Assembly (NCBI GenBank): GCA_029782215.1
Contig: JAKOVD010000098.1
Location: forward strand, 124,001 to 188,000
Length of the DNA: 64,000 bases
Reading direction: 5' to 3'
From: Chloroflexota bacterium
GTDB taxonomy: Bacteria > Chloroflexota > Anaerolineae > J102
The position numbers and the translations under genes were made by a program. This document shows positions 6,653 to 7,387 of this stretch, piece by piece (the first letter of the stretch is position 1; each line of letters begins with the position of its first letter). A model generated the notes under the pieces. It saw only the letters and a program-made list of their open reading frames with translations, had not been told where the DNA came from and did not search any database.

Positions 6653-7387
6653 CTACTTCTGCGGCGCCGAGAGGTCGCCCTGGGTCTGCCAGAAGGACGA
6701 GGTCAGGCCGAGCTGCCGGAAGATCTCCTGGACCTGGGCGGCCGTGCGGCCGTGGTACTCAGGGGAAAGGCGGTTGTGATACCAGAGCTGGGAGAGCTCC
6801 CAAAGCCTGGGAAGAGCCAGGACCTCGCCGCGGGCGACGCCGCGCTGCTCGCACCATGCATCGACGGCCTCTTCCGACCGGAAGAGCAAAATGGTCGCTC
6901 AGGTGAAGACCATGTCGTCGTACCAGTTGTCGAAGGGTACGACGAAGTGCGCCACGGCGCCGTCCCCGTGGAGCTGGCCGTCCCGGACGGACAGCAGCAG
7001 TGGCTCGCCGCCTCCGGAGTCGGTCGCCTCGATGAGGGCGTCGGCATGCAGGGCGGCGGGGATGCCAAGCGCGTCCCAGGCGCAGTTGGCCCAGTAGCTC
7101 CGCCCCAGGACCTCGACCCGGAAGCCCGTGGGCACGGCCGAGAAGGGGTTGGCGATGCGGATGTCCGTGGTGCCGGGCTCCAGGAAGAAGGCGTGCCGCC
7201 CATCCAGCTCGTGATAAAGGGCTGTGGCCTCGTCAACGCCGATCTGGAACCGTGCCGCCGTGTCAGCCACCGTGGGGGGCTGTGAGGCGGCGGCGAAGGT
7301 CTGGTAGACAAAAGCGCGGACATCCCAAAGGAGAGACTCCTCGAGGGCATCCGCTTGCGGGTTCTCAGGAGAGCCGGTGTTGGACAT
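6653..7387 (-). CDS. Putative selenocysteine-containing MerB-like (alkylmercury lyase family) protein; in-frame TGA at complement(6899..6901) read as Sec
   Basis: ORFs 6899..7387 and 6653..6889 are in the same frame, separated only by TGA. Upstream half has the MerB catalytic block ANCAWDALGIPAAL (CxxD); downstream half continues the MerB C-terminus (FRSEEAVDAWCEQRGVARGEVLALPRLWELSQLWYHNRL). Confidence 0.78.
6869..6886 (-). promoter_or_regulatory. Candidate bacterial SECIS hairpin
   Basis: Minus strand CTCTTCC-GGTC-GGAAGAG: perfect 7-bp stem, GGUC loop, stem begins 12 nt and loop 19 nt after the in-frame UGA. Confidence 0.72.

Follow-up and report, generated by a model that had tools for sequence, protein, structure and literature searches.

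A probable SECIS element behind an in-frame UGA in a MerB-family gene of a Chloroflexota bacterium

When a stop codon stands inside a conserved gene, does translation end there, or is the codon put to some other use? The question arises in the window, that is, the whole 64,000-nucleotide stretch of Chloroflexota DNA analysed here. On its minus strand, a UGA splits a 244-codon gene of the MerB family, and a conserved C-terminus lies beyond it; the frame starting at the ATG reaches its TAG after 244 codons if this UGA is read through (Table 1). The initial annotation had described a hairpin just after the codon and had read it as a bacterial SECIS element. The described stem-loop and its position proved exact. 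The SECIS reading has also gained strong in silico support from homologue conservation, codon constraint, the selenocysteine (Sec) genes of the genome and the published bSECIS constraints. There is little doubt, on these sequence comparisons, that the hairpin represents a bacterial SECIS inside a MerB-family selenoprotein gene.

Table 1. Coordinates of the features discussed (window positions unless a contig is given)
Feature	Position	Strand	Description and basis
MerB-like (PF03243) selenoprotein gene (predicted)	6653..7387	minus	ATG 7387, Sec-UGA codon 163, TAG 6655-6653, 244 aa
Codons Cys102-Asp105	7073..7084	minus	Equivalents of MerB Cys96 and Asp99; invariant columns, MerB2 alignment
In-frame UGA, codon 163	6899..6901	minus	Position of MerB catalytic Cys159; MerB2 5c17 alignment, TGA/Cys codon pattern in homologues
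Spacer	6898-6887	minus	GCGACCATTTTG, 12 nt
Putative SECIS upper stem-loop	6869..6886	minus	CTCTTCC-GGTC-GGAAGAG, 7 bp, GGUC loop; folding, conservation, covariation, synonymous-codon constraint
5' arm	6886-6880	minus	CTCTTCC
Apical loop, presumed SelB contact	6876..6879 (read 6879-6876)	minus	GGUC; loop conservation in homologous UGA contexts, fdhF likeness
3' arm	6875-6869	minus	GGAAGAG
SelD gene with in-frame TGA (L053)	C50:41487-42425	minus	Same genome, another contig
Double-UGA loci	 	 	L098, L099, L103 (=L080), L101, L097, L100

The protein itself provides the first clue. A profile search matched Pfam MerB (PF03243) at residues 82-203, spanning the UGA, with E=1.4e-28 and a score of 99.9 bits against a gathering score of 27, which places the protein in the MerB/alkylmercury lyase superfamily. 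Its AlphaFold model is of high confidence (pLDDT 95.3, pTM 0.90), and all 11 of the 11 Foldseek matches in the PDB at E<=0.001 are MerB structures. Cys96, Asp99 and Cys159 are known as the essential residues of MerB (PMC8261052). In the alignment with MerB2 (5c17), C102 and D105 lie opposite the first two, and residue 163, the UGA, lies opposite the conserved second catalytic cysteine, Cys159. The columns N101-C102-A103-W104-D105 are invariant in a 30-sequence alignment, as are F169, R170, W178, L228 and W233 on the 3' side of the UGA. Codon position 3 diverges more than positions 1 and 2, and it does so alike on both sides of the UGA. A UGA aligned with the cysteine of homologues, followed by coding conservation, is the pattern of a selenoprotein gene; it argues that codon 163 is decoded, and that it would be read as the chemical equivalent of cysteine. 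That the UGA is instead a real stop, a recent nonsense mutation or a sequencing error, with the protein ending at residue 162, is extremely improbable: a standard gene caller does close the ORF at 6899, but the same TGA is present in more than 50 genes of several phyla, and both the invariant residues and the coding-type divergence continue past it.

The hairpin begins a short spacer after the UGA, and its loop starts 19 nt from the codon. As the initial annotation had proposed folding as a check, the isolated hairpin was folded, giving the perfect 7-bp stem at -9.1 kcal/mol. With 3-nt flanks it reaches -10.5 kcal/mol (z = -2.1), a value equalled by 11 of 200 dinucleotide shuffles. When 45 nt from the UGA are folded in isolation, an alternative structure comes out marginally ahead (-13.9 as against -13.5 kcal/mol), but it pairs the UGA-adjacent bases. 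Four constraints have been published for bSECIS elements, covering loop and stem size, loop G, spacing and folding energy (PMC13188914, Fig. 2A). A loop of 3-9 nt on an upper stem of 4-16 bp is expected, and 4 nt and 7 bp are found; G at the first two loop positions, usually as G[G/U], is seen here as GGUC; the distance from the UGA to the apical loop lies within 16-37 nt; and the energy, with or without flanks, is below the limit of -7.5 kcal/mol.

Counting both strands, the window has 1640 TGAs, and just 2 of them are followed, 16-24 nt downstream, by a perfect stem of at least 7 bp with a G[G/U] loop. The core CTTCCGGTCGGAAG has a single copy in the genome of 6.33 Mb. When the downstream peptide was recoded with synonymous codons, 0.9% of the trials yielded a hairpin of this kind and 0.24% the exact one. 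The other such TGA is located at window position 25229 on the plus strand; its 7-bp stem carries the loop AGTTC, of the G[G/U] type. Taken singly, the sequence is unusual but not decisive; it is the conservation across homologues that decides the matter.

In the main set of homologues, about 30-60% identical and drawn from bins of Chloroflexota, Thermomicrobiota, Acidobacteriota, Gemmatimonadota and Pseudomonadota, UGA occupies the catalytic position in 52 of 52 genes, and the core CTTCC-GGTC-GGAAG is nearly invariant. A scan of genome contigs found 38 homologous loci, with TGA in all 36 that cover the codon; nearly all of these carry CTTCCGGTCGGAAG or its wobble form CTTCCGGTCGGAGG behind the TGA. 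Further UGA forms came from 399 surveyed Chloroflexota genomes, as did forms in which this codon is TGC or TGT. The initial annotation had named close homologues with an in-frame TGA and no hairpin as the observation that would count against it. These were looked for: 56 of 59 UGA contexts keep 5 or more contiguous base pairs that close a GGTC-type loop, and in the remaining three a hairpin compatible with a SECIS still forms, its loop being A-GGTC-G in two cases and shifted in one. The loop sequence itself is GGTC in 56 of the 59, the other three being GGGG, GGGC and AGTC. All the homologues keeping the hairpin have TGA, and the rest have TGC or TGT; in these cysteine homologues (L072, L074, L076, L077, L078 and others), the hairpin is absent in that register and the peptide of the region is a different one (FCGPA, FFVSP, FESRE). 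The UGA forms cluster together in the tree, which does not settle whether the nearest cysteine forms are ancestral or derived. Two UGA-form genes from bins labelled Gammaproteobacteria (L031, L033) are nearly identical to genes of Gemmatimonadota bins and share their neighbour genes, which suggests mislabelled bins and not transfer.

Could the hairpin be a mere by-product of codon and amino-acid constraint on the peptide FRSEE, with no function as RNA? The peptide L-F-R-S-E-E is indeed well conserved in the UGA forms, and a similar hairpin did appear in a small share of the recodings mentioned above. The codons, however, tell otherwise. When 51 UGA genes are aligned by codon, the hairpin positions +5 to +8 (NNC TTC CGG TCG) rank 1-4 of 224 columns for synonymous constraint, with an excess synonymous identity of 0.41-0.76; elsewhere the mean is 0.031 (sd 0.075, max 0.26). 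Arginine is encoded by CGG in 49 of 51 genes and serine by TCG in 49 of 49, where codon usage predicts identities of about 0.28 and 0.24, respectively, and the third-base C of codon +5 is kept whether Leu, Ala or Phe is encoded. Since the cysteine homologues combine another peptide with the lack of a hairpin, the peptide sequence seems to be a consequence of the RNA. By this codon test the by-product explanation is already refuted, and we regard its chances as negligible. The hairpin is, by the same comparison, evidently under selection at the nucleotide level and accompanies UGA but not Cys codons. The doubt of the initial annotation that codon constraint alone could account for so perfect a stem was thus well placed, as the constraint on the hairpin codons exceeds that on the rest of the gene.

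The covariation that it had suggested as a further check came out in part. Compensatory pairs were observed at 4 of 7 stem positions, for example the change of the loop-adjacent C-G to U-A in L097 and of U-A to C-G in L100, but the shuffle controls were only mildly exceeded: on four of five measures, the observed values were reached by 5-28 of 500 shuffles. The inner-stem covariation is modest because the hairpin core hardly varies. A conserved lower stem, CGAC/GTCG, as in the two-part SECIS of the fdhF type, was considered and rejected, as its 4 bp here can pair in only 6 of the 59 contexts. A search of the window against Rfam had no match at gathering scores, and even with E<=10 no SECIS model hit the surroundings of the site, so that Rfam was of no help here.

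If the hairpin is to act as a SECIS, the host must be able to make selenocysteine. The genome encodes tRNA-Sec (72.5 bits, anticodon TCA), SelA, SelB (331 bits, neighbours in frame) and SelD, so SelA, SelB, SelC and SelD are all present; the assembly is a draft whose contamination is estimated at 5.4%, and these genes are on contigs other than that of the MerB-like gene. The SelD gene has an in-frame TGA of its own, before A-S-K. As in the MerB-like gene, this UGA is at an active-site cysteine position and is followed by a hairpin, but the SelD hairpin differs in its stem, its GGUUC loop and the distance of 32 nt downstream of the UGA.

SelA was found in 331 of 399 Chloroflexota genomes, and since it is so common in the phylum, its presence alone says little; it is the contrast between the UGA and Cys forms that carries the weight. 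SelA is present in 18 of the 19 Chloroflexota genomes with UGA forms as against 0 of the 5 with the closest Cys forms (Fisher p about 1.4e-4), and the one UGA-form genome lacking a SelA match (G286) has tRNA-Sec. A tRNA-Sec of at least 53 bits was found in 28 of the 30 genomes behind the other UGA-form loci. Co-occurrence with tRNA-Sec, if taken with no baseline, was considered weak evidence, as most Chloroflexota encode the machinery; hence, SelA in the Cys-form genomes was used for the contrast. One Cys-form genome (G362, locus L072) has a tRNA-Sec match of 55.6 bits and no SelA match, possibly a lineage losing the use of Sec.

A stable 3' stem-loop can favour the readthrough of stop codons in general. 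It may therefore be argued that the hairpin stimulates the reading of the UGA by a tRNA for Trp, Arg or Cys, near-cognate or suppressor, with no selenium involved. The site, however, is that of the catalytic cysteine in homologues, the loop and the spacing fit the SelB-type consensus, and Sec genes accompany the UGA forms while SelA is missing from the closest Cys-form genomes; such readthrough is, hence, very unlikely, though a shade less so than the by-product explanation or a real stop. A genome-wide recoding of UGA was set aside given the Cys homologues and the Sec genes.

The comparison with the fdhF SECIS of E. coli, already drawn in the initial annotation, holds as well. Both elements lie in the coding region just after the UGA and share the apical loop, the GGTC of E. 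coli genomes starting 18 nt after the UGA. The upper stem is an uninterrupted 7 bp here; in the same scan, the perfect loop-adjacent stem of fdhF has 4 bp, and no lower stem like that of fdhF is conserved in the present family. On the SECIS reading, a ribosome that arrives at the UGA would receive selenocysteine from SelB-GTP-Sec-tRNA(Sec) bound to the GGUC loop, residue 163 would become Sec, and translation would run on to codon 244. Less certainly, Sec163 would stand in for Cys159 of MerB and act with Cys102 and Asp105 in metal binding and in the protonation of the bond between carbon and metal.

What the enzyme does is a separate matter. An organomercurial or organometal lyase using Sec163, Cys102 and Asp105 is a reasonably probable reading. 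The carbon-mercury bond would be the simplest choice of the bond cleaved, and the substrate is the weakest step of the argument, as neither mer genes nor any other conserved neighbours turned up. Neighbour clusters that do recur were tried as a functional clue and discarded, being confined to near relatives or resembling antisense artefacts. The protein shares the fold of MerB and MerB2 (3f2f, 5c17; Foldseek E 2e-11 to 6e-8) and keeps the Cys96 and Asp99 equivalents, but unlike MerB it has a predicted UGA-encoded Sec in place of Cys159, is 17-24% identical and does not lie beside mer genes. It stays below the equivalog cut-offs of MerB, with 33.4 vs 193 bits for NF009710 and 28.7 vs 200 bits for NF033555.

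One MerB-like selenoprotein has already been catalogued, namely the organometallic lyase SaoL (NF040728, WP_238493467.1; PMC13188914, PMC9312934). The comparison covered these two catalogues, which list no other MerB-like selenoprotein, and the main text of the 2008 marine (GOS) paper, which has no MerB. Like SaoL, the present protein is related to MerB and has a predicted Sec; compared by listed motif and profile score, the two differ, as SaoL is listed with the motif CU and the motif here is TU, and the SaoL profile gives 31.3 bits against a cut-off of 140, with a match limited to residues 49-140. SaoL reaches its cut-off in none of the 301 Chloroflexota genomes searched. By these profiles, the protein belongs to the MerB superfamily and lies outside the curated MerB and SaoL equivalogs; its gene would work as other Sec-decoding genes do.

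A true selenoprotein need not be an organomercury lyase, and it has been considered that the protein cleaves or binds another metal(loid)-carbon substrate, or that it is a thiol/selenol metal sensor with the MerB fold. This concerns the job of the enzyme and not the SECIS, and is compatible with the selenoprotein part of the preferred reading. The lack of mer operon linkage and of any conserved neighbour, the low identity to true MerB in the structure matches and the scores far below the NCBIfam cut-offs favour such a role; all three MerB catalytic positions are nevertheless kept, as Cys, Asp and Sec. We consider it a serious alternative, although the balance tips somewhat against it.

Some relatives of the gene go further. 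UGA stands at both catalytic cysteine positions, those of MerB Cys96 and Cys159, in six genes from four Chloroflexota genomes; G137 has three of them, as paralogues, and G355, G011 and G073 have a single one each. Their second UGA is followed by a hairpin of the same type as in the window gene. The first has its own hairpin with a G[G/U] loop, for example CTTGCTGCT-GGTC-AGCAGCGAG at 20 nt after the UGA in L100; five of the six genes have a shorter hairpin here (-5.8 to -9.0 kcal/mol), and as SECIS candidates the first-site hairpins appear less secure than the second-site ones. A related gene (L102, genome G097) combines Cys at the first site with UGA at the second. These codon patterns suggest a family in which selenols have taken the place of one or both metal-binding thiols. 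We lean slightly towards an uncatalogued and widespread family of MerB-like lyases that depend on Sec, distinct from SaoL and present in Chloroflexota, Thermomicrobiota, Acidobacteriota and Gemmatimonadota, in which the double-UGA members, with one SECIS per UGA, would form a diselenol site for the cleavage of organometals.

SECIS elements are of a known kind, and one MerB-like selenoprotein, SaoL, has been catalogued; the claim to novelty, made against the two catalogues, is limited. The standard annotation procedure cuts the enzyme at residue 162 and loses one of its catalytic residues; thus, surveys of MerB that require Cys96, Asp99 and Cys159 probably miss the gene, and genes of this type occur in uncultured bacteria of several phyla. 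The hairpin core is nearly invariant among genes whose proteins are only 30-60% identical, and this makes it a clean model of how SelB recognises a SECIS in Chloroflexota. A selenol binds soft metals more tightly than a thiol does. The Sec form, and above all the double-Sec form, would thus be a testable case of selenium being used in metal-carbon rather than redox chemistry.
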